Shown here: positions 6,001-50,000 of the stretch, one piece after another
Layout: every line of letters begins with the position of its first letter
How positions within the stretch are numbered: the first letter of the stretch is position 1
Assembly: GCA_009746045.1 (NCBI GenBank)
Contig: RPFO01000288.1
Span: forward strand, 475,855 to 539,854
Length of the DNA stretch: 64,000 nucleotides
Source: Mesostigma viride
Lineage: Eukaryota > Streptophyta > Mesostigmatophyceae > Mesostigmatales > Mesostigmataceae
Direction: 5' to 3'
Notes under the pieces: generated by a model
Database searches by the model: none
Seen by the model: only the letters and a program-made list of their open reading frames with translations
Told to the model about the DNA's origin: nothing
Made by a program: the position numbers and the translations under genes

Positions 6001-9000
6001 CCCATGCACCAAACGTGTGCGCACACATAGGGCTCCACCTAAACCCACCCATTAGCCCTCGCAGCCCATAAATCGAGTAAGGCCCAATAGTCCAATAGGG
6101 CCCTCTCAGCCCATTGATCCAATAGGGCCCTCTCAGCCCATTGATCCAAAAGGGCCCTCTCAGCCCATTGATCCAATAGGGCCCTCTCAGCCCATTGATC
6201 CAATAGGGCCCTCTCAGCCCATTGATCCGATAGGGCCCTCTCAGCCCATTGATCCAATAGGGCCCTCTCAGCCCATTGATCCAATAAGGCCCTCTCAGCC
6301 CATTGATCCGATAGGGCCCTCTCAGCCCATTGATCCAATAGGGCCCTCTCAGCCCATTGATCCGATAGGGCCCTCTCAGCCCATTGATCCGATAGGGCCC
6401 TCTCAGCCCATTGATCCAATAGGGCCCTCTCAGCCCATTGATCCAATAAGGCCCTCTCAGCCCATTGATCCGATAGGGCCCTCTCAGCCCATTGATCCAA
6501 AAGGGCCCTCTCAGCCCATTGATTCAATAGGGCCCTCTCAGCCCATTGATCCGATAGGGCCCTCTCAGCCCATTGATCCAATAGGGCCCTCTCAGCCCAT
6601 TGATCCAATAGGGCCCTCTCAGCCAATTGATCCACCCACCCACACATACCCTGCCATGCCCTGGGTCGCTCCCAGGACATTCATAACATTCAAATGCTTC
6701 ACAAGCCCCCCATCCCCTCATCGCACTGTCCTGTTCTAACCCAGTCCCGCGTGCCCCCCCCCCACCGTTTCGAGAGCCAAGAAAGGGGCTGGCTTCCGAT
6801 GCCATGGCTCACCTTGACGGTTGCCAGCAGGCACGCACACACTGCCTGGAACATGTCCGCACTTGGCGCCACTGCGGCGTCCCTCACATCCGCGGCTGCT
6901 CCTCCCCCCATTCCTGCCTCCCCTCCCGCATGTGCGTGGCCCTTGTCTTCTGCCGGCCCACCCGACGCGTCCCCATTATAACTTCGAGCGCCCAATTGGT
7001 CGTACTCGGAACTGGCCGCATTCTCGCTCGGTGGCGCCTGCCCTGGCCCTTTGGCCTTCCCCTTGGAGGCGGCGGAGGCGGGCCAACCGGCCTCCTGCAG
7101 CTGATGGAGCCATGAGGTGAGCAGCTTGAGGCCTGGGCCCGCCACAAAACTGGCAGAGGCAACCGAGGGGAAGGGGGAGGAGTGACGGATGCGAGCAAGG
7201 GGAAGGGGGAGGAGTGACGGTTGCAAGCAAGGGAAAGGGGGGGGAGTTATAGATGCAAGCACGGAAAGGGGGAGGAGTGACGGATGCGAGCAAGGGGAAG
7301 GGGGAGGAGTGACGGGTGCAAGCAAGGGAAACGGGGGCAGATGATGGAGGCTATTAAGGCAGGTGACGGACGGCGGATGACGCTTAAGGAGAGGGGCAAA
7401 CGGATGCACAGATTTGAAAGGGCAACGGTTATATTCAATAGGGCAAGGGTCATATTCAATGGGACAAGGGTTATTTCAATATGGCATGGGTTATATTCAA
7501 TAGGGCAAGGGTTATATTCAACAGGGCAAGGGTTATATTCATTAGGACAAGGTTTATATTCAATGGGGCAAGGGCTATATGATGTACCCTAAACCATGGA
7601 GCTTAGGGCAACTATTCCGCAAGAAGAAAAACATTTGATGAAAAACATATAGTAGTATAAAACTACCGCTATCTATTGATAGGGTACCTCGGGCGCGGCT
7701 GTGCGTGCACGCGGTGCAGCGCTGAAAGCGCCTCAGCTTGTAACAACATGTCGCCTGTTGCAAGATAGTGGCATAAGAGCGACAACATACCTCTCGTGGA
7801 TGCACTCCAGCGCTGCACCCACCATCGTGGGGACATAGTACGATACTATCACTATAGCACTCTGGACATAATAACACTGCGGACACTATAACACTGCGGA
7901 TACTATCACCACAACACTGCGGCAACACCATCACCACAACACTGCGGCGATACCTTCACCACAACACTGGTGCAATACCTCGCTGCAATACCCAAAGGCA
8001 CCATGACACTGGTGCTATACCTCGGGTATGCCTCGGCTGGCATGCGGTCCAGCGCAGCCACGATCGCCGCTTTCTGTCCCACGCCCTCCAGCCCCGCCGC
8101 CGCCCTGGTGGAATGCATGAGCTCCGCCGCCGCATCCATCTGGTGGGTGGGGGGTGGTGGGGTTGGGGGGTTTAATTGGGTGTTAAGGGGTTGGGGGGTG
8201 ACGGAGTTGGGGTAAGGAAGCGTGGGGGGTGCTAGGGTAGGGGGTAGGGAGGGTAGGGGTTGGGGAGTGCGGGGCGGGGCGGTGTGGTGTGGGGGTGTGG
8301 GGGTGCGGGGTGGCGTGGTGGGGTGGTGGTGGGGCAAGCGGAACAGTTGATACCATCCTCAGCAATAGCATGCGGATGCGAGCAGAAAGGAGGTTAAGAT
8401 GTGGGCGCGCGCAGAAGCGGTGGTGGTAGCGGGCGCAAGCAGAGCATGGACACACACCGCGTGTGCGCATAAAAACATGGTGCAAGCATACCAATGGACA
8501 CACACCAGCAAGACAAATACATGAACACGTGGTGCAGGCCATCAACGAGGCAAACACATCAAGGCATGGCCCTGTGTTGCAACACAGGGAGGCAGGACGA
8601 GCCGACACATTGAAAGGAATCCAGGGTAGCCTGGGCGAAACCTGGCCTATCAGTCATGCTGCTGTATTTTATTGAAAGCGCGGAGAATGTAGTCCCCGGA
8701 GTTTGCAAGGCAAGAAGCAGAAAGCCATAGGTACCGCCACCGCATACCACCATCATACCGTCATACCAAACATGTGTCACATACCGTCACAAACCATTCA
8801 CCAATGTAACATCACATACTATCACAACATGGCAAGTGCTACGGCATTTCTTATGCCTGCAACACCTGAGAAGCAATCTCCTTCTATTCCACCACGCGAG
8901 AAAAGCCTCCTCGCAACAACTGACAGCACGCAAACTGAAAAAGTTCCCTTCAGCAGGACCTAGGAATGAATTTAATACTCCGAGCAAGCAGGCAGACTTA

Positions 9001-10988: not shown

Positions 10989-11561
10989 TGTTACGCCGCG
11001 GATATCTACCTCCACCTCTACCTCTAAATGGCCTGATACTACCTAAACTGGTCAGGCCTCCTCTACTTAACCCTCTGGCGAAAGACGAACGTGACGGAGC
11101 TGATCTCAATGCATTAACGTAAGTGTTACTATAATACGCCATACAACCATTTATCAAAACCCGTTTATTCCAGGAATAGAGGAAGGAAACACAACTACAC
11201 TGCCGTGACCCAAGCCTAAATGTGTCAATTCACTTAACACATGCCGAGTGCACACACAAGGGGTAGAACGCGCATAAATGGTCACCAACGGTCCAACACG
11301 CTCGGGCCGACATGGCCCTCGCCTACAGGTGCACGCTGGTCCACTAAATCTACTGATGCACGCTGGTCCACTACATTCTACCACAGGATCAGGACCACTA
11401 GTAAAGTACGCGGCGCGGCGCCCAACGGCACCCAATGTACCACGGTACTGTTACGAGGACAATAATGTCCCGGTAGGAGCCTAAACGTAAACCTAGGGAC
11501 AACCGAGGCAAAGGACCTAATTTACGTCCGTAACTACAACGAATTGTTACGCGACGTAACA
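10989..11561 (-). repeat. 3' LTR of the chromovirus
   Basis: 573 bp with TGTTA and TAACA ends. It differs from the other LTR at position 6 (C here, T there) and in AATAATGTCCC against AATAATGGCCC. Each LTR holds a small internal repeat, CACGCTGGTCCACTA, present twice. Confidence 0.97.
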
Positions 11562-11572
11562 CCTCCCCCCCC
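11562..11572 (-). other. Polypurine tract next to the 3' LTR
   Basis: On the minus strand the sequence just before the 3' LTR is GGGGGGGGAGG followed by TGTTA. This is the expected position and composition for the primer of plus-strand DNA synthesis, and it fixes the element's orientation. Confidence 0.8.
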
Positions 11573-11929
11573 ACAAAGGTAGGGAGCCCTCTCCCTACGT
11601 ACAGGGAGGAAAACAAGGGGTAGGAAACCTAATGCACCCAGCACACACTAACACAGTCAGCAGGCCATCCAAGATACAAGGCACCAATAGTTCACACGGT
11701 CTCCACCACCACGCCTGGAGGTGTAGGGTTAGCCAGCACCAAGCCTGGTGGTAGGTTCCCCTAACTGCCTGGAACGAAGTCCTGGCCGGGGGGAACGGCA
11801 CTGGGCAGGACACACAGAGTAAACCATCAGCACCAAGGACCAAGAACAACCAGTCAACTGGCCAGAACATGAGGGCGACTCTACATACCGGAGGGACAAC
11901 ACCCTCAGGTCGGGCCTAAGGCCCTCTAT

Positions 11930-14285
11930 CTAATGGCCATCCGTCTGGTAGGTACCACGGGAGGCCAGCAGGACATCCAGGTAGGCCTGGTAGTGGGCCA
12001 CATCCTCGACATTGTCATGCCTATCTACAGTGAGGAAAACATCGGCCCACACGCCGTCAGGAAAGAGGCCCAGGAAGGCCCAGTAATACCTATGCTGCGT
12101 GAGGACGACCTGGCCACGGGCCCAGTCCAGAAAGCCACAGGCAAAGAGGCGAAGGAAAGGCTCTACCGCGATCAGGCAAAGGGCCCGCAGGAGGAGGCGA
12201 TGGTACCGGATCCGAGGGCGCATACCCGTCGGGAAGAACAGGTCCACCAGGGGCTCCACGTTGGACGGCCACAACCGGATGTGCCGCACCTCGCGGGAGC
12301 GCCACCGACGAACACACTGTCGCGACCCGAATGTCTCTAGGTAGTCGCTGGCCCGAGGAGGAGGGTGACCACGGGAGTCTAGACCCTGGCCCGGGATAGG
12401 CGCCGGGCGGCGGGCATCCCACTCAAGGATGGGCTGGAGGACCGTAGTGTACGCCGCACCCGGCACCGCAGGAAACTCTACTGTAAGGGCATCCGAAGCC
12501 ATAATGCCCAGAGGGGAGGGTAAGCCCACTGGAACCCACCGTAGGTGTCCAAGTCGTTGTGGCGCCTAGCCCAGCGATACAGAACGCGCCGGACCAGGAT
12601 CTCACCCTCGAACACCGGATCAGCTAAAATAACCATGTCGAAGGAGGCCGATCAGTCTCAATGGGTAGGCCACGATCCCGGGGCGCCCGACACACCTGGG
12701 AGAACCCGTAGGACATGGGAGAGATGGCAAGCTCAGCAGAGGCGCGCGGCAGGTCACACTGTCGGCAGGCGAGTGCGGACATACCATACCCAGGAATGGG
12801 CGTGTCGCGCGACTCCGGCGTCGCATGCACCACAGAAGGGCCCTGTCCCGATCACCCTGGGACAACTCCCGGAGGGAATCGGCAGCGCGGGTGGCGCGAG
12901 GATCCTGACCGGTGGACCGAACAACCGCGGCCAAAGACCGCGAGGCCGAAGGAGGAGGGACCGAAGCAGGGGCCGACGCAGGGGCAGGAGCCGACACCGA
13001 CGCAGGGGGCACTGGTAAAACAGGAGGTCGCGCCGGACCCGAAGCCAGAGAGGGCCGTGACGGACCCGCCATCGACGCAGGCGCGCCGGTCTCCGTTGCC
13101 GGTGCACCCTCAGGCCACATATTGAAGATAGGGCCCGTAGGGACAGGCAGCCCGGCATAAGATTGGTTACCATCCAAGCTCCAGTCGGGCACCGGGATCC
13201 TCTGCGGGGGACCACCCTCCCAAAGCCTGGGATGATCGCCCGTGTCGCTGAAGAAACCACGAACTGGCTGTGAGGGCGCAGCGGACGGCCCAGAGGGGGC
13301 GACGGCGGGCACAGCCGAAGGGGCTGAAGACTCGCGCCGAGGCGCGGGAACGTCGGCCGCAGGCACGGAGGCAACCGGAGGTGTCGGAACCGCAGCAACC
13401 GAAGGGGTAGGGGGCGCCGGCGAAACCACAGGTGCCGAAGCAACCGAAGGGGTAGGGGGCGCGGACACCACAGACACCCCACCTGGCGTGGCCGGAGTCT
13501 GCGCTTGGGCCGCCAGGAAGGCCCCGAACGCCGTGGTCAGGGACTGGATCTGAGCCTGCATAGCCGAGACCGTCGCCGAAAGAGGATCAGGCAAACCCGA
13601 AGGGGTAGGCTCTACTGCAACACCCGGGTCGACCGAGGGGACGACGGGACCGGAGAGGGAGGAACAGACGCCGAGGAGGCGGACGCAGCGCTCGAGGCAG
13701 AATAATCTGGAGTATAATGTACCTCGGCTGGGGCGCCCGAAGGGGCAGGACCACTAACCGCTAGTCCGCCGACTGATCAGCTATCTCCATGAATTCTACG
13801 GCCCGTAAAAGGTCGCAGGGGTTCTCATCTACCTCAGCATCACCCTCAGCCGGAAGCCAAGGGAACACCTCCCGTAGGCAGGTACGGCCCACAGGGTGGA
13901 GAGGTAGGAGAACACACGGCAACACCGGAGAACCGCATCTATCTGTCCCAAGGCGGGACAGCTGGAACCACACCCCAACAAACAGTGTCCGGCATCGTCG
14001 AACCCGTGCAGGACAAGCTGGTGCGGCTCATCAGGGGAAGGACCATACCACGTGACCCCGAAGAGGGCCGCCCTGACTAAGCTCGCATGTTGGGCCTGAA
14101 GGGCCGGCTGCACAACGCCACCCGGTAACATGATCGCGACACCCAGCGGCCCGGAAGGGCCTCGAAATACAGCTCAGGGTCCGGTAGGGGCAGGGACGGC
14201 AGCGGGCTCTCAGCCGGAGGGGTAGGCTCTGACATGACGGCTGCGGAGGGGAGGGGACAACCAACCACCCGTCGACAGCAGACAT
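11930..14285 (-). pseudogene. Unrecognised coding-like region between pol and the 3' LTR
   Basis: Downstream of pol, on the element's sense strand, protein-like segments lie in changing frames. They run from a start near MSEPTPPAESPLPSLPLPDP (about 14237), through a segment with GVTWYGPSPDEPHQL, an acidic piece with EVDENPCDLLRAVEFME, and a long Pro/Ala/Ser-rich part (13594-12900). They end in a segment with DYLETFGSRQCVRRW and a run of hydrophobic and basic residues (12529-11930). At least four frame changes are needed to join them. I do not recognise the family. The position is that of an env-like or accessory third gene. It could equally be a relic of another element. Confidence 0.5.
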
Positions 14286-14311
14286 AACATAAGAGAGGAG
14301 AAGGCCTACGA

Positions 14312-17300
14312 CTAGAGCTTGTGCAGGGTTTTATATTCCTGCAGCAGGCGACTACACCCATCTAGCTCACTCTCCGTATACCAAACCTTATCTACTTCAC
14401 TACGAGCATACATCCACTTCACTTTATACTGACGCTGGGTACCGCGGCCCTTTTTGATATCTCTATGGGCCACGATGCTTTCTACTTCGTCTTCTACTTC
14501 CCCAGTGTCAGGATTATGCTCTAAAGGGGCAGGCGCTAACTCCCTGCCAGCGAACGTACTAGGGTGGTACAGTTTAAGCTGGCTCCTATGGAAGGTGTTT
14601 GAATGCGTTTGCCAAGAGGTAGGGATATCGACTTTATACAAGAAATTTCCTACCCTAGACAACACATGGAAGGGTCCTAAGAAGGCAGGCCTAAGTTTGA
14701 CCTTCAGTTCTGCTTCAAACTTATGAGCAAAACGGCCAACACGGGGGCCTTCTACTAATACTAGATCTCCTACTTCTATCTCAGGTGCTCGTCTATCTAA
14801 GGAGGCACGCAACCTAGCAAGGTACTTAGCCTGAGCTTTTTGGTACCCTGAGATCGCGTGGTCATGAGCAGTTTTCATTCTATCTAGTAAGGACTGTACA
14901 CCTTCTACAGTATCTCGGGACACATCATCCTTGTCCCGTAGAGGACTAGCTAAGAGAGAGGTAGGGGTAAGGGGCTGTCTACCAGTATCTAAGAAGAAGG
15001 GCGTATATCCATGCGCAGCTTGGGGACAATTGTTGAGGGAGAACTCTACCAAACATAAATAATCCTCCCAATCACTACCCGAGCCATTAACATAGTGCCT
15101 AAGCGCTTCTTCTACTACTCTATTAAGACGCTCTACTAAATGAGAGGAGGAGGAGTGGTAGGCAGTACCGTAGGTAACCTTGGTACCGATGGCAGCGAAA
15201 AACTGCTGCCAAAAATCTGAGGTAAATAATTTATCCTTATCACTAATAAACTGCCTACTCAATCCATGATATCTATATACATTATTGAGGTATAGGCGTG
15301 CGCAATCACGTGCGGTGAGTTCTAAAGGACACGGCACAAGATGGCACATACGAGTAAAACGATCTATGAACACAAGGATTTGGGCATTGCCCCTATCATT
15401 CTTTCTAAAAGGTCCTACAAAATCCATCATGATAGAATCCCAAGGCATGATAGGGTCAGGCAAGGTCCTAGGTTCTGCTATCTGTCCTACATTATTGGGT
15501 TTCATTTCCTGGCAAGATTGACAAGTTCTAACATACTCATCCACATCCTTATAAAGGGAAGGCCAGTAATAAGAGCGGGCTACTAGGTCCCGTACCCGTT
15601 TACCACCCTGATGAGCAGCTAAGTCATGCAACTCAAAGAGCAAGGAGGAGCGACAGATAGGAGGGACATACAGGCGCCATTGAGGGGGAGAATCTGCTAT
15701 CTGCACATATAAAAACCCACCTACAAATTTACAAGGGTGCTTGCCTAATTGTTGGGGATGTGCAGCAATGGCAGCTAATGCTTCCGGCTCAGTGGCCGTA
15801 AATCTACTAATAAGGCGTTCAAGATCAGAGGTAGGCATCGCTACAGAAGTATCCAGAACAGGTTTAAAGAGATCTCCTACCGCCTTGCCAAAGAGAAGGG
15901 GAGGTCCTAGAGGGACTACGTTTTCATAAGACTTTCCTGACCTAGTCGCTATATGGCTAAGCGGTATAGAAATTTTATTTTTCCCCTCCCCCCCCACCGA
16001 GGCCACAGGAAGGGCCTCACACGGGAGAGAGAGTCCTACGTGAGAAAGGAGATCAGGCATGCGAACAGCTGTATGAAAGAGGTAGGCATAGGAATCATCA
16101 TCAGGTAGTTCACCATAAGGGGTTACACCCATAGTAGTAGGAACTAGAGTAGTATTGAGAACATCAAGGTCCTCGAAGAAGGAATAGTCTGCACGACGAG
16201 AGAGTGCATCTGGTACTATGTTATCTACACCCTTGACATACTGAAGTTTAAAAGGGGAAAACTGTGCTAAAAATTCCATCCAGCGCGCTTGCCGAGGGGT
16301 AAGGTTGGGTTGGGAGAGAAGATGGGTAAGGGGACGATGATCCGTTTGGATAACTAACCTATAAGGATCTAGCTCACAGGGTTCATTCAGGCAGACATCA
16401 AATTGAGCACCTTTAAGGAAGTGCTGCCACGCGTGGCAACAATACACCACAGCTAAGAGTTCCTGCTGGTGGACGGGATAGTTACGCTCCGCAGGGAGCA
16501 TTGTCCTAGAGATATACTCAATTGGCTGTAAGCCCTGACCCTGATCCTGGAGAAGGACACCACCTATAGCTACTTTACTAGCATCTGTAGCCACAACAAA
16601 GGGTTTAGTAGTATCCGGTAGGATGAGTACAGGAGGGGAAAGGAGTAGGGATTTTAGGCACTGAAAAGCCGACTGACACTCACTACTCCAAACAAAGGGG
16701 ATATCCTTCTTTAATAAATGATTAATAGGGGCTGCTATAGTTGCGAAACGCGGGATAAAACGCCTATAGTAAGAAGCAATTCCTAGGAAACTACGTACAC
16801 CTTTAACGTCGGTAGGAGTAGGCCATTCCTGAATTGACTTAGTTTTATCCGGGTCGGTAGCGACCCCGGCATCTGACAGAACGTGCCCTAAAAATGGGAC
16901 ACTCCTACCCGAACGCACTTTAGCACGGCGCGCCCACAAAGAATTTTCAGCCATTATTTCTAATACTTTCTTTAAATCACGTAGGTGCGTTTCAAAATCA
17001 GGAGAGTAAATAAGAATATCATCTAAGTAAGCTTGAGCACAAGAACGGTCATGCTCAGATAAAGAAACAGAGGAGAAGGAGGATCCTTTAGATCAGAGGA
17101 CACCTGAGGAAGATGAGAATTTCCCATAACAGGTCTAAGCACTTCATTCATTAACATTTGAAAAGAGGCAGGCGAGTTACAGAGTCCCATAGCCGCTACT
17201 CTAAACTGGTAATGACCAAAAGGGGTAGCAAAGGCGGTTTTATGGCAATCCTCAGGAGCTATCCGCAACTGCCAAAAACCATCCGCACAATCCAGTACTG

Positions 17301-18440
17301 TGAAACAAGTGGAACCTTTAACCTTATTAAATATATCATCAATACGAGGTAGAGGGTATTTAGATTTCACAGTAATATCATTCAACTTCCTATAATCAGT
17401 AACTAGGCGAAACTTGCCATTTGGCTTAGGAACTAACAGGACACCAGCTGAGTAGGGGGAGTTACTAGGCTCTATCAATCCTGCTTCTAATAATGACACT
17501 AAAATCTGTTTTAGTTCCTTTAACTCGGTAGGGCCCATTCTATACATCGGAGAGTGCGTAGGAACTGCACCGTCCTTGATAACTACACGGTGTAAAACAG
17601 AACGAGGAGGAGGATAAGAAGGAGTCTTTTCTTCAAATACTTTTGAGGAATCTATCACAGCCATGTATCTTACTATTTCATTTTCAGTAAATCCTACTCC
17701 TATTGTATCCACTGTATTTACATCTATATCCACACTATTATTAGTGATAGGTATCTCTTGTACTTCTAACTGAAGGAACATACATAATAGGTATCCATTT
17801 TGCTTTAATTCAGAACGTAATTCGTCATTTGACATTAATACTTCAGGTATAGGTCTTACAGGAGGATCAACAGGTGTAGGAGGAGTAATATCTACCAAGG
17901 ATAAATTTTCCAATCTATAATGACGTTCAGGTACCCAGTAAGAGCTATCTGGAAACCAAATGACCATGGTATCATAATTAATAGTAATCTTATTATCCTG
18001 GTGCCAATCTAATCCTAGTAATACATCAGCGGTAGTGATAGGGCCTATAGTGGCCGTCAGGTTGACAGTACGTCCTTGTATAACCATGGGAAGGGACACC
18101 GTACCCGGGGAATGACTGGTGCGACCATCAGCATAATGAACAGTAACGGGTTTGGTGTGAGGGGTAGGGACTAGTCCTAAACGCCTAACTAGGGCCTCGC
18201 TCACAAAGGAGCTAGCCGCACCGCTATCTACCAACACAGAGACATTCAAGAGTTCATCAGCATGCAAGAAGGGGTCTACAACAGTGTGAGGGACGGTTAA
18301 ACCACCATTCAAGAACATAAGAGGACGCACACGTAGTGGTAGGGAAGATTCAGCTCCTACAGAGGTTATAAAAACAGGCAGGCAAAAATTTTTATCTGGG
18401 GTACTATCTAAGGACCTGTCCAGGTTACCCCCGGCTGACA
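14312..18440 (-). CDS. pol: pol polyprotein: protease, RT, RNase H, integrase, chromodomain
   Basis: The first open stretch (about 18440-17023) holds a retropepsin site (LVDSGAASSFVSEALVRRLG) and the front of the reverse transcriptase (LDCADGFWQLRI, then FGHYQFRVAAMGLCNSPASF). The second frame carries the YLDDILIYS catalytic box and runs into the 880-codon stretch 16954-14312. That stretch has RNase H (ATDASKVAIGGVLL, TDHRPL), integrase with its HHCC zinc finger (ELHDLAAHQGGKR to CQSCQ) and catalytic DDE residues, and a C-terminal chromodomain (VESIVAHRDIKKGRG to WYTESEL). The usual YHPQTDGQTERVN region is replaced by YHSSSSHLVERLN, which keeps the glutamate. The two frames meet at 17103-17054, a 50-nt segment with GT and AG ends just before YLDD. 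The gag-pol boundary lies at a G-run near 18455. Confidence 0.93.
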
Positions 18441-18443
18441 GGC

Positions 18444-20098
18444 CTACTGTTCCCCCTCCCCCCCCAAATCCATAGGAACTAACCCCGAAGAAGACCCTGG
18501 CGAAAAAGCCACTGCTGGAGGGTCACGAGGGAGCGAAGAGGGTGCGGGAGCCTGATTATCATAGGGGAACCCTGGGGATCCTGTCTGCACAGCATTCAGC
18601 CTACTAGGGGTAGCTGAAGGAATGCGTCCTGAAGTAGGACGAATAGGAGCACGCTGAGGGGTACGAGGAGGGCGAGCGTCGGGATGAGGGGGAGCACCCG
18701 AAAGGAACTTGGGGCACTCACGTTTAAGATGACCTACTTCCTTACAATGATAGCATGTGATATGAGAGACATCAAGGGCTGAAAGGTCAGTAACACAGAT
18801 ATCTAATTCTTCTACATAGGAGTTCTCCTCCTCAGGGGTAAGGATAATATTATTAATACGGGAACGGGTAGGAAGAGAAGGGGTGGTGAAGAAATCTGCT
18901 ACACGCAAGAGATGCTGGCGCACATGCTTGAGGGGCAGATCAGTAAAACGGTAGGCAGAGAACTGGCGCTTGACTTCACGTAATAAGGGTCTACTGAGGC
19001 CTTGGAGGAAGCGAGCACGTACTTCTGCACCCGACAAATCCCTAATTCGTACCATCTGAGCATCAAACTCTTTCATATACTCCTTAAATGATTTGTACCC
19101 TGCTGCAAGGTACCAAAGGCTAATCTATCCTGCCAATCTGAATCAGGAGGGACTAAATGGTTCTCTAAACGCTTAAACAATTCTGCTACAGAGTTAGGGT
19201 AGGCATGAGAGGCCAAAGACTCACACTGAATGAGGTTAGCAAGCTCAGGAGTAATACAGGTTGTAAGATAGTGAGGAACTAATACAGCATCAGAAAGACG
19301 CCATCTATTATGATTCTGCCACGACTCTGTGTTCTGGGTAAGCAACATAATAAAGGTGAAAAACTGTTGAGGGGTAGACTTGACATCCAGCTTGGGAAGG
19401 TTAGCAAAGAGGGGAAGAGCAGGGGCTTAGGGGGATTAGAAGAGTCAGTTTTTCCCATAGGGCCACTATCTTCCACTGCTACATAAGCGGGATAGAAGGA
19501 AGGAAGAGGAAAAGTCTTGGGTAGGGGTCTAGAGGGGCCACCGTTTCAGGCTGGTGCCCATAAGAGAAGGGGACAGTATATTGCTCACGAAGAGAGGAAT
19601 AGGCAAAATGATCATAATTTCTATCATCTAGGGCATGGTACTGAAATCACTATTAACTTCTAAATCAGCCACACGGGTAGGGACCTGGGCTGCCTCATAG
19701 GCCGTCTCAGGGTAGGACCAGGAAGCAGGTGGGTAAAAGGGAACTGCACTAGGGCGCCCAGAAGGACCGACAGGGGCAGAGGCACGACCCGTGTTAAGAG
19801 CAGGCATGGAAGGAACAGGGTGGGAAGGAGGCCTAAAAACATTGTTAGTTAGTGAGGACCTGCTGGAGGGTTGAGCCAAGGTTGCAGGAGGGGCAGGGGC
19901 CTGGTTCAGGGTAAGGGAAGGGTCATCACTAAATCTGACTTGCATACGTTGACGTTGTTCATAGGTAGGAGGGGTAAGTGAGGGACGACGGCGACCATCA
20001 GCAAGAGGAGAAGGAGGTGAGGCACGAAGATTACCTTGAGGAGTGAGATGGTGTACCGTTTCAAGTGAGTCCCGTCGGTTACCCGATTGTTGTTATGG

Positions 20099-20135
<37 letters not shown>

Positions 20136-21236: not shown

Positions 21237-21237
21237 T

Positions 21238-21810: not shown

Positions 21811-21815
21811 GTTAT

Positions 21816-33931: not shown

Positions 33932-36900
33932 TTACGCCTTGACGAACGCATGCACGCGCTTGAGCCAGCCCATGTACTCGGTTTGCTCCTTGTCCTCGCG
34001 TGCGTCCATAATGTAGCGGCCCAGCTCCTCGTTGATGCCGCGCGCGACCAGGAAGCCGTGGAACTCCTCCTTCAGGATGTCGTCCAGCATGCTGCATGGT
34101 AGGGCAAGATAGGGAATGATAGGGAGGGTAGGGCATGGTAGGGGATACTAGGACGGGATATTAGGGGAAAGTAGGGGAGACAGGGGATGAGCAAGCCCTG
34201 GAACTCCTTCAGGGTGTCATCCAGCAAGCTGCGTGGTTAAAGAATAGGGGGAATAGAAGAGTAGGAGACACAGGGGAACTGGAAAGCTGTAGAACTAGTC
34301 TCTGGCGATGTCATCCAGCAAGCTTCATGCCTGAGGGATAAGGTGAAGTAGGGGAGCCATTGCCTACCTCTTCGATAGGGCAGCATGCATGCATGGTTTG
34401 GGTAAGGGTAGGTTACTTGACCACTTATACCACCTAGCTTCACAAGTGAACAAGGCAAAGCTGCCTACACACCTGGTGGGACGCTGTGGATCCGTCGATA
34501 GGAGAGGCCATGCGTCCAGGGATAGCTGTCTCACTTAATACTGTGGATCCTAGCACCACAAATCAGGCAAATGCAACACACAGAAATGCCACGTACGAGT
34601 AGTTTGGCCCATCGTACGGCATGGCTGGAATGGATTTCACCCTTGTATATAAATAGCTACCCACTCACAGTACATGGACCCACCCTGTCTATACTCAGCT
34701 AGCCACAAGGCAAGGGCATGCGCCACCTACGTGTAGTTTGGCCCGTCGTACGGAATGGCAGGCATCGACTCGCTCTCCTCATTCAACTGCGTGTCCAGCG
34801 TGACCTTGTGCACCTCGACCGTGCTGCCGTCGGTGGTGCACTCAAAGGTCAGCGTGTCCGGCATGCTGGGCTTGTTGATGTGGACCGTGAAGTTGGCCTG
34901 CGCAGGACAGTAAGCAAGGGCGTCATGCGTCATGAGTATTAATGAGTGGTTATTATAACCAGGTTACCATGATCAGCGCTGATGTGGGCCACAAAGCTGG
35001 CCTACTCAGGACTGTCAACAAGGTCGCCATAAGGAGTGGTCACTATAACCCGTGGTCACTATAACAAGTGTTGATGTGGACCAAACTGTTGGCCTGCACA
35101 ATTATTAAGAAACAAGGTGGCAGGCAAGAGTGTCATGAGTAGTGAGTGGTTACTATACGCAGAGGTCACGATAATCAGTGTGGATGCGGACCACAACCTT
35201 GGCCTGGAAGATAGGGAGCAACAAGAGGGGAAAACACGATGGCATGGAGCTCGTAATTAAGGAGTTGAAAATACTCATGGACTGGCACTATTACTCATCC
35301 TTGCTGACGCGGATCACAAATTTGGCCTGACAATAAGGGGCCATCCAGAGATTGGGTATCCCGATGGCACGGAGCTCGCCAGTAATCACTCTCTAGCACT
35401 GTTGTTCAGGTTGTTACGGTGACCTTATTGGCGTGGGCCACAACCATGACATGCACAAGGTGGCACGCCATGAAGCAGCACGGAATCGCACGACAGCTGT
35501 CATGAAGATAAACACCCAACGAACAGGTAACAGATGACACCCTGGCAACCCACCTGAGGTGGCGGCGGTTCCAACACCTCATCGCCCCCTGATCACCCAC
35601 CTGAGGTGGTGGTGGCTCCAACGCATCAGCATCCTCCCCAGCCTCCCCCTCCTCTCCCTCGCCGTTGTCATCAGGCAGGCTGCTGAAGAAATCGTCTGCT
35701 CGGGGGGGAGGGGAGGGGCGCAGGCAGGCGAGCACAGGGTGCGCATGGGTCAATTGAGTTTCTTTCTTTCGAGTCAGACAATTGAGGGAGGGCATCCGCG
35801 ATGCATGAGCGGATGCATCCGCGTGCCACAGTAGGTCGACAGCTATGATTAGTGAAAAACGACCGCGAGCGCCATTGCTAGGAGACCCAGAGAAGACCAC
35901 CCAAGGCCGGCAGAGCTTGGCTGGTAGAGGTGGTTGCCATAAAAGGGAGGGCTTCCATTCCGGGGCGTAGGCTGTTTCATTTGCCTCCCACCCACCCACC
36001 CTGGCAAAAGGGGGAAAACAGGGGCACAGCTACTGTGGGCTGGCACTGCAAATTCACAGAGTGCTCACCCTGGCATACAGATGGCCCAGGGTTCATCTGG
36101 TAGACAAGCCAGGGTTCCTCCACCGCACCGAGCTAGCACACATAGCGAAAGAAACAGAGCACTCGCCCATGGCAAAGCTGCTGTTGACACATGGTGTGAC
36201 ACATGACCGCGACAGTGTAGGAAACCGGACCAGACGACCGCACACGGTAGGGCAGCGGGACAATGTACACGGTCCCACAGCGGGACAAGATAGTGAACCA
36301 GCCAAAAGGTAGTGCACGAGCGACCATGTAGTGGATGGTTGGACCTGCAGGGTGGATCCAACTAGCCACAACCACACCTCCTTGACCACGGGAAAGACGG
36401 ACCCATGTTACTAACAACCTGACAATCGTTGTTCGGCAAAGAGAGTGGTTAACGAGCAGTAAACAACCAAGCCTCAGTTGGTCTCACGTTCACATGGACT
36501 TTGCGATGCGCCAGAAGCAACTATTTCAACGTACAGCTCTTCTGCAGCGTACCCTGCGGAGTCGTGCACTTTGAGGAATGGGACCCTGGCCGTTGAGGAT
36601 GAGACTATGCGTTCACGATAGACTTGGACATCGAGCTACTGGGTGGGTTTGGATATCGAGCTACTAGCTAGGTTTGGATATATATATATATACTAGGTAG
36701 GTTTGGATATCTATTTACCAGGTAGGTTTGGATATCTACATACTAGGTAGGTTTGGATATCTATTTACTAGGTAGGTTTGGATATCTATTTACTGGCTAG
36801 GTTTGGATATCTATTTACTAGGTAGGTTTGGATATCAAGCTCTCTTCGTCGGCTGCAAGATCCACAACCAACCGTGCAAAGTACCACCGTCCTTAAGGGC

Positions 36901-38521
36901 AGCGCCATGCTGTCGCTCATGATGATGTCGTCACACCAGACTACGCCGCAGCACCATTGGCTTGACAAGGCAAGAGTCGAATTATATGAATACTACTATC
37001 AACAGTAGATGACAAGAATGGCAATACCTGGGAACGAGAACACCCACCCTCGTCGTTGGCGGAGAAGTTGATGGAGATCTCCTCCTGGTTGAACGTGCGG
37101 GTGAGCACCATCTGGCAGTCACCTGGCTGGGACACGAGCTTGAAGGGGGAGGGGGGCCCGCTGCCCTTCTGCTAGCCACCGCCACCGCCACCACCACCGC
37201 CACAACCACGCAGGGAACCAAGCAACAGGGAGATGGGAATGTAAACAAACACTGGCAGAAGGGGACATGGGTAGAGGGAGAAGTGGGTAGAAGGGGAGGT
37301 GGGTACAAGGGGAGGTGGGTACAAGAGGAGGTGGTTATAATGATAATAGACCAGTGATTTGATAAGGAACGCGAATAACACAACTTCTATATTATAATGA
37401 TAATAGACCAGTGATTTGATAAGGAACGCGAATAACGCAACTTCTTTTTTGGTCACTATAAGGTGATTCCGTGCATCACAGAGTAGGACATTGCCGTTGC
37501 ACCCCGCCGTTCCACAGTCCACACCTTGCTTGTGACGGCTAGAACACAAAAAACACATCAAGGAGAAGTGAGCCCTGAGCCACATTTGTAGACATGTACA
37601 GAGAAGTCAAGTAGTGTAAAGAAAAAGGATTAGGTCTAAATGGATGGTGAAGGTAATCCCACCATCCCGCAGGCAGCAGGCGTATGCATTGGAAAAAATC
37701 CCACGAGTATGCAGCATGCATGCCTGCAACCGTGCACACGCGTCTTGGCGTATGCGGATCACCCAAGCATCTCTTTGCAGCCACAACACACCATGTAACT
37801 AGCTAGCAAGATGTAGCTCTATTGAGCTACGTGACCCCCTTGCCATCGGCACTGTGTCAGCAGTTCACCAGCACATGAGGTAATTGATAGCTTGTACCTA
37901 CTCTATTTACCCACCTGCGCACCTTCGAATAGGGTGCACTTTTACAACTGAATATTCGCCCTTAGTACCAGTTCAACAGTACCATGCCACTGGCACAGGC
38001 CTTCACCAGGCTCTAGACCCTCCCAAACCACCTCCACCAATGATGGAAAGGAGGAAATAGGATGCAGATGAAGATGGGCATGTGGGCCGCTCACCCCACC
38101 ACCACATGGAGAAGGCAGCAACCAACAAATTACATCAAAAGGGCACCGCGTGACATAGTCACGGAGCTACCACCGAAAAGCTAGTGGGGCAGCAGCCTCT
38201 GCAGCGGGAACTAGTACAATGACAGGCAATTGTAACGAGCAGCAAACAGCAATGGCTTAATATTTTGAAACCGCGACAGTCGAACTATTAAATGGTCTTC
38301 ATCGACCGGGTCAGCTTCAGTGACCTGGCAGACAGCAGTGATAGCAGGGGCAGTGTGTCCCTGACAGCTACAGATGAAGAGAGTTCCTCTGCATGCCATT
38401 AGAGTGAAGGCTACACACCCATACACCCATAAAGCCACCCCGACCCCCACGCCACCCCCCGACCCCACCCCACCCCCCACCCCCCCACCCCCCCCCCCAC
38501 CCCCCCACCCCCCCCCCCCCC

Positions 38522-38553
<32 letters not shown>

Positions 38554-39487
38554 ACCCCCCACCCCCCACCCCCCCACCCCCCCACCCCCCCACCCCCCCA
38601 CCCCCCCACATCCCATGCCTGCATGTGCAACTCACAACATAGCCCAAACTGCCAGTTATCACAGCCCTACCCTCCATAACAAGACGATTGCAGGCCTGCT
38701 TGTGCATTAATCTATCTACTGCTTCATGGCCTCAGGAGGGAAATAGGTACACGATGAAAAATTTCTCGGCTTTCCACCATTCACTCGGAAAGCATGAGAA
38801 AATGCCGACGTCCGGCGGGACATGCAGCCCCGGAAGAGCCTCCAGTCACCCCGCACCCAAATATGCCACCGCATGCCTTTTGGCCAAACAGACGACCGTG
38901 CCCAAACATGCATACTACGCGGAAAAATATCTTAATCGAAACCACTCTCCCATCTAGTACGGGCTTTGGATAGAGAGGGACTACAAACCGGCGCCCCGCG
39001 CCGAACCCAGGCAAGGCTAACATTTACAAGTAAAACATGCAAGCATGCGACATCTTCTTCAGCATGGAATGTACTGCAGACATGGTTCATTAGCAAGCTT
39101 CTGCAGGCAATTTACCTGCGGGGGGACATAGTTCTCCTTCTCGAATTTAAGCTCCTGCTTCAAAACGTCGGCTAACCCCGAACCGTCTGCAGACGCGGAA
39201 AATCCGCGTGTCAGTGAAGAAGGACTGCGGGGCGAAATGCTCGGCCCAGCCCCCCCGGCAGCGTGGCCGGGGAAGCCACTAGCCAGGTTCCTCCGCGATG
39301 GAAAGACGGGTGCACTGTGGAAGGCGCTGTGGGCAACGTCGGCACGGTCGGGACGGTGCGCAGCACACGCGCCGCGAGCGAGGACGACCGGGGCAGCGGG
39401 AAGTTGCGACAGATGCGCTGCCCGCACACGGCTCACGCTTTGCATGGCGCACCTCAACAAGGCAGACACTCCCTCTTGGCGAGCCAT
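33932..39487 (-). CDS. p32/MAM33-family mitochondrial matrix protein, five exons
   Basis: Inferred exons are 39487-39116, 37168-37048, 35695-35601, 34897-34731 and 34091-33932. All ends are GT-AG, the phases agree, and 915 nt encode 304 residues. The N-terminal 95 or so residues are Arg/Ala/Ser-rich without acids, as expected of a mitochondrial presequence. The mature start DVLKQELKFEKENYVPPQ is typical of the family. It continues with FKLVSQPGDCQMVLTRTFNQ, EEISINFSANDED, an acidic stretch (DDNGEGEEGEAGEDADALEP), NFTVHINKPSMPDTLTFEC, AIPYDGPNYT and the C-terminal helices LDDILKEEFHGFLVARGINE and EYMGWLKRVHAFV. p32/MAM33 proteins form acidic trimers in the mitochondrial matrix and act in ribosome and OXPHOS biogenesis; this is family knowledge. 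The gene is divergent from the CGL160 homologue. Introns 3 and 4 are full of copies of adjacent splice junctions. Confidence 0.93.
34200..34645 (-). repeat. Junction copies in intron 4 of the MAM33 gene
   Basis: The exon 5 acceptor region (plus strand TTCAGGATGTCGTCCAGCAT, then GCTGCATGG) recurs at about 34208-34235 and 34305-34328. The exon 4 donor region (plus strand GTAGTTTGGCCCGTCGTACG) recurs at about 34590-34640 as GTAGTTTGGCCCATCGTACG. Both ends of the same intron have therefore been copied inward. Confidence 0.85.
34960..35460 (-). repeat. About five diverged copies of the exon 4 acceptor junction in intron 3
   Basis: The true junction reads TTGTTGATGTGGACCGTGAA then GTTGGCCTGCGC on the plus strand (34873-34904). 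Related segments occur at about 34977, 35057, 35177, 35302 and 35425. Each has GATGYGGRCCACAA-like sequence then TTGGCCTG or a variant, spaced about 80-125 bp. Some copies also carry the following GAGTGGTTATTATAACC sequence. Confidence 0.78.
35540..35625 (-). repeat. Copy of the exon 3 donor junction of the MAM33 gene
   Basis: The plus-strand segment CCCACCTGAGGTGGTGGTGG (real donor, exon end 35601) is preceded at about 35549-35575 by CCCACCTGAGGTGGCGGCGG. Both contain CTCAG followed by GTGGGT on the minus strand, so two possible donors lie about 46 bp apart. Confidence 0.85.
36640..36840. repeat. 24-26-bp repeat with GGTAGGTTTGGATATCTA unit in intron 2 of MAM33
   Basis: About seven imperfect units of ACTAGGTAGGTTTGGATATC with a TATTTACTA spacer. 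The rest of intron 2 (35696-37047) shows no gene. Confidence 0.88.
38430..38610. repeat. C-rich ACCCCCCC tract in intron 1 of the MAM33 gene
   Basis: About 170 bp of C-runs broken by single A residues. The opposite strand has many runs of four or more G and could form G-quadruplexes. The spurious Pro/His and Gly/Val frames are not genes. The remaining intron (37169-39115) has a duplicated segment at about 37330-37440 (TGATAATAGACCAGTGATTT twice) and nothing else I can support. Confidence 0.9.
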
Positions 39488-40429: not shown

Positions 40430-41001
40430 ATGGCGCTTGTGGCTCCTCCGGCTTTAGCAACAATGCCTGTCTCGTGCCCCGTTTTGCAGCGAGGTGGCAT
40501 TACCTTGACCGGCAATTACGTCCGCAGACCTTTGGCACGCCCATCTAGCTTGTACAAACGCCGTTTACGCCCAGGAGTCTTCGTCCGTGCCGACGGCACG
40601 GAACAGGAAAATGCGAGGGCCGAGCAACCGGCGGCCGCCCCAATTACAACGCCGGATCCATTAAAAACGACGGACTACCTCTGGAATGTACCCTGGCAGA
40701 AGATGCTGGAATCGGACGAGCAGCAAGCGGCGAAGAATCGGAAGTTGGATCAGAAAGAGGTAGGTATAATGTAATTGATATACGCGTTATATATCGTATT
40801 GTTACATGTAACTGCTGTACACGTCTCATTTTCCTAGTTACGGTTGTCTAGCTTGGAAGCGAAATCCGTGGGGAGTCGCCGTGCCGCGTCAACCGCCGAT
40901 TTCTCAATATGAAATCGACTTGAATTTTTTATTTCTTCACGCGACTGCTCTGTGGCACCCTCCACAGCGAGTCATGAATTTTTCATGGAGTTGCTGGAAC
41001 T

Positions 41002-41057
<56 letters not shown>

Positions 41058-44000
41058 GACCATCTTAAACCCTCAACAGTCCTATAGGGATCATGCGAAT
41101 AGTTAGCCCCCCTTGTGAATAGTTAGCCCCCTTGTGAGTAGATAGCCCCCCTTATGAGTAGTTAGCCCTCCTCGTTATTAGTAAGCCTCCTTGTGAATAG
41201 TTAGCCCTCCTTGTGATTAGAATTTAGATAGCCGCCTTGTGAATAATTGGCACCCCTTTTGAGTAGTTAGACCTCCTTGTGATTAGATAGCAACCTTGTG
41301 AATAGTTAGCACCCCTTGTGAGTACTTAGCCCCCCTTGTGAGTACTTAGCCCCCCTCTTAAGTTGGCCCTTTTATCAGCGCCTTCTTGGCCCACGTGGCA
41401 GTATCGATAGCGTTCGCGGCGCAAAAGCTGTAGCCTCAACTAATACACGTATGACTACATGCGTTCAGCAGATGGCAGGTAGATGGAGACAGAGGCATCT
41501 GGTCGGGTCTTTCGCTTGCGAAGAGAACCGATTGACCGTCGCACGCACAGGGCGCACAACAATGAGGCGCATGCAAGGGCCAGGCGCCAGCAGCCAGCGC
41601 ACACGGGGCTATCAGGCCACAGCGGCTCCGGTGTGCTGGCGCAGGGCCATTCAACCATGGAATGATCACGCGGCTCATATGATGTATTCAAGTACGCACC
41701 CGCCAGGATGCCATGTAGTACGCAGTAGTACAGTATGCACGCGCCACTGTTGGGAGGTAGCAGGGAAAATTGCACATAGCCTGGCTTTGCGCGTGGGTGG
41801 GTGTGGGCTATGCTGTGAACGGTTGGTACCTCCCCTGTGCGTGCTTGCTGGGGACATGGTTCCCGGACCACAGCCAGAACACAGTCGGGGAACGGTGGGT
41901 GTTGGTGCCTCCCCTGTGCGTGCTTGCTGGGGACATGGTTCCCGGACCGCAGCCAGAACACAGTCGGGGAACGGTGGGTGTTGGTGCCTCCCCTGTGCGT
42001 GCTTGCTGGGGACATGGTTCCCGGACCGCAGCCAGAACACAGTCGGGGAACGGTGGGTGTTGGTGCCTCCCCTGTGCGTGCTTGCTGGGGACATGGTTCC
42101 CGGACCACAGCCAGAACACAGTCGGGGAACGGTGGGTGTTGGTGCCTCCCCTGTGCGTGCTTGCTGGGGACATGGTTCCCGGACCACAGCCAGAACACAG
42201 TCGGGGAACGGTGGGTGTTGGTGCCTCCCCTGTGCGTGCTTGCTGGGGACATGGTTCCCGGACCACAGCCAGAACACAGTCGGGGAACACAATTTTGATG
42301 TGTGTGTGGTTGATTGAGCATGATGTGTGTGTGGTTGATTGAGCATGGACGACATCCCATGGAATGCATTTCCTGGATGTCATTGCAACATGCAGGCGCG
42401 TGCCCGACTGGACCCCTCGTTTGCCCTGCCCACCCACCCTCGGTGCCATGCCCCGCTGCCCACCCACCCTCGGTGCCATGCCCCGCTGCCCACCCACCCT
42501 CGGTGCCATGCCCCGCTGCCCACCCACCCACTGTGCCATGCCCCGCTGCCCACCCACCTGACTGGCTGGCCTGACGGCTGGCGGCTCCGTCATGGCCTGC
42601 TCACTTGCCCATGTCCTGTCTTTGCTGGCCGTCCTGGCCTGCCTGCTGCCTCGCTCACGTCCTCGTTTGCTGCCTGGCTCCCCGGCTTGTCCTTCCTTGT
42701 CCCCCTCGGCTCTTCTCGACGGGTGGCGTGGGGCGATCATTGGGTCGCCTGCGTCGCACGCCCGCTCCCTTGCCTGTGTCCTTGGCCGCCTGGGTCGCCT
42801 GCGCCGCGCTTGCCAGCAGGAAGAGCCCCAGGACGGTTTCCTGAGCCTCACGCGGCCCTCCCTCCTGAACGAGTACGTCCTAGCATGTGCACTACGTCCC
42901 GTTGATCATGCATGCGTGGTGCCTGTCGTTACGTTGCCTCACGGGTTCCTCCCTCCTCAATGAGTACTTTGCGCCCGGCCCATCGTTGCGCCCGGCCTGC
43001 TGCACGCATGCCATGCTCATTCCCTTGTCGACGAGTAGGTACTAGGACGTGAACCGTATGCCACGCACTAATATGATGGTACTGGTAGTTTGCTGTTGCC
43101 ATGGTCAATTCCACTCTTGGTTGCCATGGTCAATTCTTCTGTTGCGCACGACCTCCTCCACGTGTGCAGCCCTGGGAATGCAGCATGCCGGCCGCAGCAT
43201 GTGGTGTGCTCCAAAACTTAATTTGCACGTGATGTTCACTAATTACTGACCATTGCACGTGATGTTCCCTACTCACTTACTGCGTAATAATCACTTACAT
43301 GCTAGCGTAGTAGCTTAGCACGGGCCTTCGCTATCCAGTGGTTCGTTACGGCATCTCGCGCGGTCTAGAGTTTCACTAGTAGCGTGATAAATCATGACGT
43401 GGTGAGTTCAGTTGATGGAATTAATCATTATTATTGACCCCACGATGCCTTACACAGCATCATGGTAAGTAAAGCCGTCAGCACGGGCAGCCAAAGCATG
43501 GCTTCAGAGCATAGTTCATTGTTTTTACTAATCTTAGCAAGCAAGTAGTGTCACAGTTCATCAGACTGCACTAATTTGTGGGGGTGGGGTGGGGTGGGGA
43601 CCTAATGTAGTGTGACTCGAGCAGGTAGCATTAATCTAGAGCGGTGCAAATGCTTGAGAGCACGTTATGGTGCTTCGTGACTTTTCACCCGTGGCACATG
43701 CCTGCATTTCCGTGTTAATGCGGGCTTATTTTAAAACCACGATCTGTGGCCCTCGACTGCTGAGCAGTGCCATCTGTGCCCTTTTTCTCCCTTCCCCTCC
43801 CCCCCTTCCCCCTTCCATTCTATTTTTATCCCCTTGTATGCCCCATGCCAGCATCAGCGTCGACCTATCTGCGGAGCTGGCCAGGCCATCCAAGGCCACC
43901 CTCGCGGCAGAAGAGATTCGTCGCCGTAACGCGGAGCTGGAGGCCAAGGAGGCTAGAAGGCGGCGTCCGATCCGCTACGCGCCCACACGGGGGGAGCTCA

Positions 44001-47000: not shown

Positions 47001-50000
47001 AGAGCAGAATATTTCCTGTACGCACAAATGTTCCCTACCCGTTCTTGTGCACAATGTTAAGGGCTCCTTTCTGTCCCATATGGAACTCATAATAGCTCTA
47101 CGGCTTATTAAGGCAACCCCCGCCAGGGGGGTGGGTTGGATTCTGAAAATGTTGCGGTATCAGTGTACAGAACCGTCAGCACGTGACTGGGTCTCGTGGG
47201 AACTGATGAATGAACCTTCAAAAACCCTACACAAAACAAAGGAGCAAGGGGGCCCTAGCTTCTCTCGTACTGCCCTCAAGCGGGCAGCCACAGAGGACGC
47301 TCTCTGCATCATAGTGCAGGCGCCATTGTGGCCTGTCTCAGTTATCCATACATCTGCTCTGCCTGCTCTCTATACAATAGTCGGCCTCTAGCAACACTCT
47401 GTCTATATAATAGTCTATATAATAGTCGGCTTCTAGCAACACTCTAGCTGTCTCTGCCTGCGGCTGCTGCGGCTGCTGCGGCTGCTGCGGCTGCTGCGGC
47501 TGCTGCGGCTGCTGCGGCTGCTGCGGCTGCTGCGGCTGCTGCGGCTGCTGCGGCTGCTGCGGCTGCTGCGGCTGCTGCGGCTGCTGCGGCTGCTGCGGCT
47601 GCTGCGGCTGCTGCGGCTGCTGCGGCTGCTGCGGCTGCTGCGGCTGCTGCGGCTGCTGCGGCTGCTGCGGCTGCTGCGGCTGCTGCGGCTGCTGCGGCTG
47701 CTGCGGCTGCTGCGGCTGCTGCGGCTGCATTTTCGGTACCCGATTTTGCCACATCATCACAACAAGCTAGCGACTCCAGCTGGGGGGTTAGGCATGCCGG
47801 GCACGCAGTACACGAAAGGTACCTAGCCCTTGGCGTCTGCCTGTGCTGTCATCATTTGTCGGCATTTAGCAGCATGCCGCCACTGTAATAACACCAGCAC
47901 AGCCATGGGTGTGCTTAAGCTGGCAACACACACTGGCAGAGCTGGTGTCTAACCATTCGCTCCTGCCTGTATATGTTGTCATGTGTCAGCATCTGTCGGC
48001 ATCTGTCGGCATCTGTCGGCATCTGTCGGCATCTGTCGGCATGTGTCAGCATCTGTCGGCATCTGTCGGCATACCTCCAGCGCAGGGGTGGGCATGCTTG
48101 GGCACGCTTCTGCCTGTATCTAACCGCTCGTTTCTGCCTGTGTCCTTGGCATTTGCCGGCATTTGTCGTCATGTCACCAGCGCGGGCGTGGGCGTGCTCG
48201 GCAGCCTCATGTACCTGCGACTGCTGTCGCGCGCAGTCGACAGCCTGGGCGCGTCAGGGCTGGGGGGAGGGTGAGTGGCTGGAAGGGGCAGCGATTTTAC
48301 TGTTTACTAGTATGCATACTGATGGTGCTGTATAGCGCACTTGCGCAGGGAGGGTGGATGGCTGGAATGGGCCATGCGGCATGACTAATGTATGTGCTCT
48401 CTGCCTTGTGCCCTGAGATGGTTGGATGGAGCGAGAGCATTCGGGCACATTGCTCTCGAATCGTTATTGAATTTATGTTCTTGAATTCCCCCCTGGTGAA
48501 ATGTACTTTGCGTGTAACTGGGGGGGTAAGATAGCTTGAGCAGTGCGACAAGCTTGGTGGCATGCTGTAGTAGTTTGCTTCATCACACTCATCAAACTTC
48601 TTCAAACAAATCATCGCACCCTTGGTATACACTCACCTCAGAAATCGATTTATGCATTATTTTATTTGCTTCCTCGCACTTTTTTTTCCAAGTCCACGTG
48701 CGCTATCGTCTACATACCAGAAGGCCAGTCTGGAAGCAGTTTGCTAGGTATTGCAAACCAACTCCAACAGGGAAAACTCGCTAGCGGTTTGCTAGGTATT
48801 GCAACCTAAGGGTCCCGCTTGATCTACCCCCACTTGATCTCGGTAGGTGAGCTCATGCTTTCCCACTGTGCTGGTCTCGCGCCCGCGCATGGGTCCTTGC
48901 GCACCCCCAGTGAACGGCCATCACAAACTGCTCTCCTTGCCCATGAAGGAAGGATAACGCCTTGTAGACAACGTGATTAGGGGCCCTGACTGCGGGGTCC
49001 TGAGGGTACCGCTTTCATCTGCCTCTCCTGCTGCTTGTTATTTGTCAGTAGTAGCCATATGAATGGCAACGAAAGTGGTAGAGCATGACATGTTAATAGA
49101 CCATTATTTTGTCTGTCTATTCTCCCCATCAGCTAGACGCCCATGGCCTACCCACCCACCAGAAAATATGGAACAGTTTGCTTATAGACCGGTCACTACG
49201 ATTCCCCCACTCCATGCATGATGTCCTGTCCCTAGTTAGCCAATAGCGTCGGTGTCAGGATTATGCACGCCCGCACTAGGCCTGTTGGCGCACCCTACTC
49301 CAGTCCTGCCGGCTTTGCACACATGGTTTTGCGTTGTTGTAGTGCCACGTGATGTCCTCGTCAAGTCTAGCCTCACACTCTGCTCCTAGTCAAGTCCAAC
49401 GTTGCTCCTCGCCCGATGGGAGCTATTCGTTTTTATTAATTGCTTCCCGCTCTCTCAACGCTTGCTACTATTGAAGTTGGAAGTTGAGTGTCTTTTATTT
49501 CGGTGGGACATTGTGGCTCATTGTCCTACGCGACATCGCTCTATTCCCTTTAATCGGACATCGTTAGCTCCCTCCTGCAACAGTGGGGCACACTCGCTCA
49601 CCCCCCCCCAAAAAAATGTGCACTGCTGTGTGTGCGCGTGTGTGTGTGTCCGTGCGTGTGTGCGTGTCTGTGTGCGTGCGCGAGCATGTGTGTGTGTGCG
49701 TGTTGCTGCTTGCATCCCGCTGGCACCTGACAGCCCGCCGCGCATCCTGGTGCCCGTCATCCTCATCCTGGGCTTCACCAAGTGGAACCAGTGAGTGTGC
49801 AGCAGCCAGGACGACCGCTACCATAACTGTTCACTATGCGTACTTTTACAATTAAACTACTATCGTGTGACAACGCTGCTACTGCTAGTACAATTACGGC
49901 TATGACTACTTTGCTAATAATGATACTTCTAATATTGATACGACTAAGCTTCTACTACCACTTCCACTACTGCTGCTACTGCAGCTGCCAGTAGTGTGCC

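Follow-up and report, generated by a model that had tools for sequence, protein, structure and literature searches.

Splice junctions of four Mesostigma genes

We analysed a 64,000-nucleotide window of the Mesostigma viride genome (contig RPFO01000288.1, positions 475,855 to 539,854 of the forward strand) that holds four genes with defined introns: DUF1365, MAM33, CGL160 and clathrin heavy chain. In the first three, introns contain copies of their own splice junctions, probably left there by small tandem duplications. DUF1365 (Mv18118; 22331–26803, plus strand; PF07103) has 6 exons, with junction copies in introns 3, 4 and 5. MAM33 (Mv18119; 33932–39445, minus strand; PF02330) has 5 exons, and its introns 3 and 4 carry copies of both donor and acceptor. 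CGL160 (Mv18120; 40703–50906, plus strand; PF24763) has 8 exons, with junction copies in introns 2 to 6. Exons 1–8 of the clathrin heavy chain gene (58020–62327, plus strand; 7 introns), which was absent from the list of copied junctions in the first-pass annotation of this DNA, served as a control.

Protein searches found three EukProt proteins labelled jgi/Mesvir1, a label we take to denote Mesostigma viride: Mv18120 (CGL160), Mv18119 (MAM33) and Mv18118 (DUF1365). Mapped onto the window, they showed 0 mismatches and GT–AG boundaries at all introns, fixing 16 introns whose junctions rest on database protein annotation. The clathrin gene was modelled by hand from its translation and PDB matches, and the complete set comprises 46 junctions in 23 introns of the four genes. 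Of the 12 junctions named in the first-pass annotation, 11 agree exactly or within one base with the mapped Mesvir1 proteins; donor coordinates vary by one base between listings (24740/24741, 44038/44039, 44814/44815 and 48270/48271). That list also included a donor at 8020 in a TFIIS-domain gene, which has a TFIIS-like (Med26) domain at 3900–4235 (Pfam). Because a protein search gave no matching protein for this gene, its exon is unverified and junction 8020 was kept outside the 46. In the same gene, a 32-bp array (7159–7337) stops ~10 bases before a presumed acceptor, with a pyrimidine-rich tract that appears repeated by eye (7150–7337).

In most computations, CGL160 exon 1 was set to start at 40424, 6 bases before an ATG at 40430, which affects no junction. 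The mapped protein begins at 40703, and the frame stays open upstream as far as the ATG at 40430; a start there would add 91 residues, conceivably a chloroplast transit peptide. MAM33 and CGL160 lie head to head, with a gap of 1.0 to 1.3 kb set by the choice of CGL160 start. Past clathrin exon 8 (62655–63290), short stretches resemble later clathrin segments by eye, the intervening segment was not seen in translation, and two short pieces gave no clathrin match in Pfam; the gene may be broken or rearranged there.

Copies of splice junctions inside introns

Each junction was queried as 30 exon plus 30 intron bases against its own intron, with 200 dinucleotide shuffles of the intron as the null; at 8020, the following 720 bases were used as the intron. 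The first-pass annotation had reported copies at donors 8020, 23898, 24740, 35601, 34731, 44038, 44814, 46382 and 48270 and at acceptors 34897, 34091 and 48181, and this straddling query bore it out, with all 12 beating all 200 shuffles (p = 0.005, z 4.5 to 30). Its further statement that the arrays include coding bases held for only part of the list. The exon half alone was significant (p ≤ 0.01) at eight of the 12 junctions (24740, 35601, 34731, 44038, 44814, 34897, 34091 and 48181), of which 48181 is borderline, with p = 0.01, yet p = 0.15 with a 50-base exon query. At the other four (8020, 23898, 46382 and 48270), the exon half was non-significant against shuffles (p 0.06 to 0.87). By itself, the intron half was likewise significant at eight of the 12 (8020, 23898, 44038, 46382, 48270, 34897, 34091 and 48181). 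Because each half is significant alone at 44038, 34897, 34091 and 48181, it is unspliced DNA that was copied at these four junctions, and we infer the same source for the remaining copied junctions.

A survey of all 46 junctions, using a 99% null threshold per junction (~0.5 false junctions expected), identified 21 copies at 14 junctions (9 donors and 5 acceptors), in 10 of the 23 introns and in three genes. Acceptor 24407 and donor 48271 barely exceed the threshold, and donor 42873 and acceptor 26474 are further copied junctions outside the earlier list. By gene, complex windows with copies numbered 3/8 in DUF1365, 4/6 in MAM33, 5/12 in CGL160 and 0/14 in clathrin. None of the 14 clathrin junctions had p < 0.01, z > 4 or a score above the 99% null; one donor in that gene, 58912, gave p 0.035.

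Exon edges matched their own intron in 9 of 46 cases in a first test (p < 0.01), and 40-base exon-edge windows did so in 9 of 46 at z > 4. Against non-adjacent introns of the four genes, the same windows gave 11 matches in 1,012 comparisons, and on the reverse strand they gave 0 in 46; exon windows at least 40 bases from the edge matched their own intron in 0 of 98 at z > 4 (1/98 at p ≤ 0.01). The copies are thus local, in direct orientation and restricted to exon edges. Of 13 alignment rows, 11 cross the junction; two (35600 and 8020) were self-aligned and were not used.

In DUF1365, a 53-bp tandem array (23896–24043, plus strand) detected by Tandem Repeats Finder (TRF) begins 2 bases inside the exon, before the intron 3 donor 23898 (straddle z 10.7), and consists almost purely of intron sequence. 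The acceptor of this intron (24407) has a marginal, low-complexity copy at 24316–24359 (33/45 identical, score 105 versus a 99% null of 102). The intron 4 donor (24741) is copied at 24792–24866, with 59/81 bases identical across the junction, and has a weaker copy at ~24889–24956 (score 80) that was left out of the count; the intron 5 acceptor (26474) is copied at 26343–26386 (34/46 identical, p 0.005). In MAM33, on the minus strand, the intron 3 donor (35601) has one copy at 35534–35570 (28/37 identical) and the acceptor (34897) two at 34968–35117 (47/65 and 36/50 identical), with weaker copies from 35203 and 35323 left out of the count. The intron 4 donor (34731) is copied at 34574–34643 (53/72 identical) and its acceptor (34091) three times at 34184–34412 (56/75, 51/77 and 47/67 identical).

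All CGL160 copies lie on the plus strand. Two copies of the intron 2 donor (42873) occupy 42928–43065 (33/43 and 47/74 identical). At the intron 3 donor (44039), a 101-bp tandem array (44002–44371; TRF span 44002–44322) has a unit of 37 exon and 64 intron bases, with two near-identical further copies and one decayed copy (67/67, 64/67 and 57/82). The intron 4 donor (44815) is copied at 44932–45006 (58/75 identical) and 45067–45150 (61/84 identical), and a third copy at 45185–45225 (score 100) was left out of the count. A 34-bp array recognised by TRF (46372–46552; straddle z 11.8) begins 10 bases inside the exon, before the intron 5 donor 46382, and the acceptor of that intron (48181) is copied at 48051–48128 (58/80 identical). 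The intron 6 donor (48271) has a weak copy at 48309–48411 (score 101 versus a 99% null of 98; straddle z 5.4). Past the presumed TFIIS-gene donor 8020, the stretch 7850–8020 (minus strand) holds TRF arrays at 7850–7980, 40 bases inside (straddle z 4.5; exon half p 0.06).

Identities across the junction range from 100% down to 64%, and 19 of the 21 copies differ by at least 12% from the real junction, in line with the earlier description of near-identical to heavily decayed copies, suggestive of a continuous process. In 19 hand-chosen pairs, exon-copy differences by codon position 1, 2 and 3 numbered 36/238, 43/240 and 49/240 (15%, 18% and 20%), with 17 gapped positions, and one copy of 34091 holds an in-frame stop. 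This pattern is close to flat, as expected for neutral decay of non-coding copies of a slowly changing exon. One CGL160 copy (45063–45116) retains a similar stretch of 54 bases with no gap.

Decoy splice sites were indeed created: 13 copies that retain GT or AG were examined, while other copies have lost them. Using any of these 13 sites would bring a frameshift or premature stop, so use of the outermost site matters, and at all 14 copied junctions the outermost donor or acceptor is the one that fits the mapped proteins. Between copies there is no annotated intron, and the three mapped proteins splice at the outer junctions of existing introns alone. They give no sign of the new exons or introns that the first-pass annotation thought such copies could seed.

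Probable tandem duplication and intron growth

Beyond the observed copies, their local same-strand position and the similarity that crosses the junction in the 11 usable alignments, we consider it likely that the 21 copies were left by small tandem duplications across the junction, probably tolerated since splicing would use the outermost site. A tandem duplication across a donor would produce exon–intron–exon′–intron′. With the first donor used, the protein would remain unchanged and the inner copy would be spliced out, so that each duplication would lengthen the intron by one unit of roughly 30 to 130 bases; copies inside the intron would then decay. Protection from the decoy site would come from exon definition. 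A human study reports that, where two sites are about equally strong, exon definition favours the upstream 5′ site, which yields the smaller exon, and intron definition favours the downstream site (PMC9225289). The proposed lengthening of introns is supported; in the ten introns concerned, 2,387 of 9,737 bases fall in the span from a junction to its most distant recognised copy, and in MAM33 intron 4 the figure is 478 of 639.

The process itself would be general tandem duplication of non-coding DNA in the Mesostigma genome, possibly with an extra bias at donors. Tandem arrays make up 21.1% of intron DNA and 19.9% of remaining DNA (outside modelled genes and two element regions, and including the TFIIS gene), but 1.1% of coding DNA, as well as 1.8% of a Ty3-like element and 7.0% of a stretch resembling a long interspersed nuclear element (LINE). 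This distribution is explained by duplication as a general process on which selection acts as a filter. Copying does not depend on a splice site, because the last 77 coding bases of MAM33 recur past its stop codon (33824–33901, minus strand; 62/78 identical, z 17 versus shuffles). Among stop-codon edges, one of three genes (MAM33) has a clear copy; at start-codon edges, matches from 150-base queries score up to 110, as raw scores with no significance attached.

The window is rich in simple repeats, with 82 TRF rows, and contains a 1.6-kb CCCT tetranucleotide array at 54338–55937 (~409 copies). The Ty3/gypsy-like element (10995–21716, minus strand) was recognised by eye from its frames; identical 473-base stretches at 10995–11467 and 21244–21716 look like a pair of terminal repeats, in which case the insertion would be very recent. 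Open frames at 28074–32353 also resemble a retroelement by eye. An Rfam scan of the window gave no match at gathering thresholds.

Several observations weigh against general duplication, tolerated at the junction, as the full account. The intron half alone was non-significant at 0.01 at 24740, 35601, 34731, 44814, 42873 and 26474, 6 of the 14 junctions tested. For 3′ sites, the human study reports an overall upstream preference that is significantly weakened, without being reversed, under exon definition, with long introns on both sides (PMC9225289). These data support a shield less well at acceptors, where copied junctions are fewer than at donors (5 versus 9). Copies occur at 14 of 34 junctions in introns of at least 500 bases and at 0 of 12 in shorter ones (p = 0.009), a contrast that fits tolerated duplication but is confounded by the fact that five of the six short introns are those of clathrin and that duplications themselves lengthen introns. 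Splice-site use was read from annotated proteins, and the events are seen in one genome. A junction can stand only at the end of an array, so interior windows were also counted only as first or last copies. Corrected in this way for array copy number, donors stand at 9/23 versus 56/807 for the intron interior (39% versus 7%, about fivefold), and a collapsed count gives 14/46 junctions versus 9.3% of the interior, with a grouping that may over-merge simple repeats. In a simulation, junction copies stay legible only about 1.25-fold longer than interior repeats, so a purely general process perhaps yields too little to explain a fivefold donor excess.

These last figures favour an alternative in which a mutational process (for instance loops, pausing or breaks at sites that are spliced co-transcriptionally) biases duplication to exon edges, donors above all, and introns grow from their ends. 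We regard this alternative as possible but rather unlikely. Exon-only windows at donor edges also point to it, with copies at 6 of 23 for both 30 and 40 bases (p 0.004 and 0.008), but at 60 bases the count falls to 2 of 15 (p 0.29), and exon-only edge windows at acceptors are non-significant. Intron-only windows, which are free of the exon's slower decay, give 2–5 of 20–23 at donors versus ~7%, with two of nine tests at p < 0.05 (lowest 0.018), and none of nine tests at acceptors is significant; corrected for array copy number, acceptors reach 3/17 versus 62/813 (18% versus 8%, p = 0.14), which is not clear. Six array ends fall 15 bases or less from a junction, versus 1.0 expected when arrays are kept inside introns (p 0.0002), but the excess fades to 6 versus 3.2 (p 0.09) once arrays are allowed to take in up to 40 exon bases. 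By position coverage, 12 of 40 complex junction windows carry copies versus 75 of 376 intron windows at least 100 bases away (30% versus 20%, p = 0.15); an earlier count of complex 40-base windows gave 60/368 for the intron interior, a naive parity with junctions. When ages were compared, as the first-pass annotation had proposed, recent copies showed no excess, with 1/40 at junctions versus 28/376 in the interior. The profile rises from 0 to 4% at 60–100 bases into the exon to 27.5% at the junction, and continues at ~13–22% from 20 to 180 bases into the intron. The absence of copies at all 14 clathrin junctions also speaks against a general edge bias. Edges are strongly enriched over deep exon (9/46 versus 0–1/98), and the comparison with random intron segments is mixed. 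What stands of the suggestion that duplication is targeted to, or tolerated at, exon edges is repeated local duplication there; targeting is not established, and the answer depends on the null chosen. A donor bias is possible but unproven, because the finding was picked for its visible copies and overlapping control windows are non-independent, making p values too small. It is more doubtful still that Mesostigma introns grow mainly from their ends, with edges, donors above all, as hotspots of recurrent tandem duplication that exon definition makes nearly free. If so, worn exon pieces in introns would form a dated record of intron growth.

The other explanations fare worse against tolerated duplication. 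Functional copies, serving as alternative or mutually exclusive exon ends or as selected decoys, could draw on the many retained GT or AG dinucleotides and on the ungapped CGL160 copy, but the flat codon-position differences, the gaps, the in-frame stop, the consequences of using the 13 examined sites and the lack of copies in the mapped proteins make this very improbable. Alternative exons in particular were rejected, as codon positions differ about equally, with no coding constraint. Chance similarity or ordinary microsatellite growth might be suspected in so repeat-rich a window, the more so as four of the 12 listed cases lack significant exon sequence. It is contradicted already by the z scores of up to 30, by the preference for a junction's own intron and by complex units that span the junction, and we give it almost no weight. 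An assembly error at repeats, suggested by near identity among copies of the 101-bp array at 44002, is scarcely credible for the set, since assembly error does not yield the divergence seen in 19 of 21 copies.

Relation to known systems

Long introns are commonly attributed to transposons. A Mesostigma genome paper puts mean intron length at 1,142 bp and relates this to repetitive elements, which fill 30% of intron space (PMC6947507). Exon-edge copies offer a separate, readable record of intron growth. Because the exon is held by selection, an old edge duplication stays recognisable somewhat longer than an ordinary intron repeat. CGL160 intron 3 provides a natural test of splice choice: its three donors have near-identical surroundings, and the mapped protein uses the first.

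Among the matches listed from the open-licence literature, none describes this junction-copy pattern, and the nearest case is the potato RdRp gene (PMC4974935). Tandem duplication likewise crossed an exon–intron boundary there and splice signals were inherited; that case concerns one gene and made a new intron, whereas in Mesostigma an existing intron is lengthened, repeatedly and in several places (14 of 46 junctions). A unit with both exon and intron bases, as in potato, was found at four junctions, and elsewhere one half alone was significant. Internal tandem duplication (Hellsten 2011; Gao and Lynch 2009, as cited elsewhere) likewise alters exon–intron structure and is tolerated by splicing, but there a piece inside an exon becomes an intron, whereas the Mesostigma piece straddles a junction and feeds the old intron. 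Tandem repeats with dual-specific splice sites, UBC among them, similarly offer the spliceosome a choice among repeat units; those units are coding and alternatively used, whereas the Mesostigma copies look non-coding and decayed (PMC10809524).

Introners and other dispersed intron elements were considered and set aside, given the 11 matches in 1,012 comparisons with non-adjacent introns of the four genes. Intronic minisatellites are a known class, and the young cases at 44002, 46372 and 23896 resemble such arrays. Clear head-to-tail arrays are present at 44002–44322, 46372–46552 and 23896–24043, and TRF misses most of the other copies. The Mesostigma case differs from minisatellites in that the unit may take in the exon edge and in the additional presence of old, decayed single copies.

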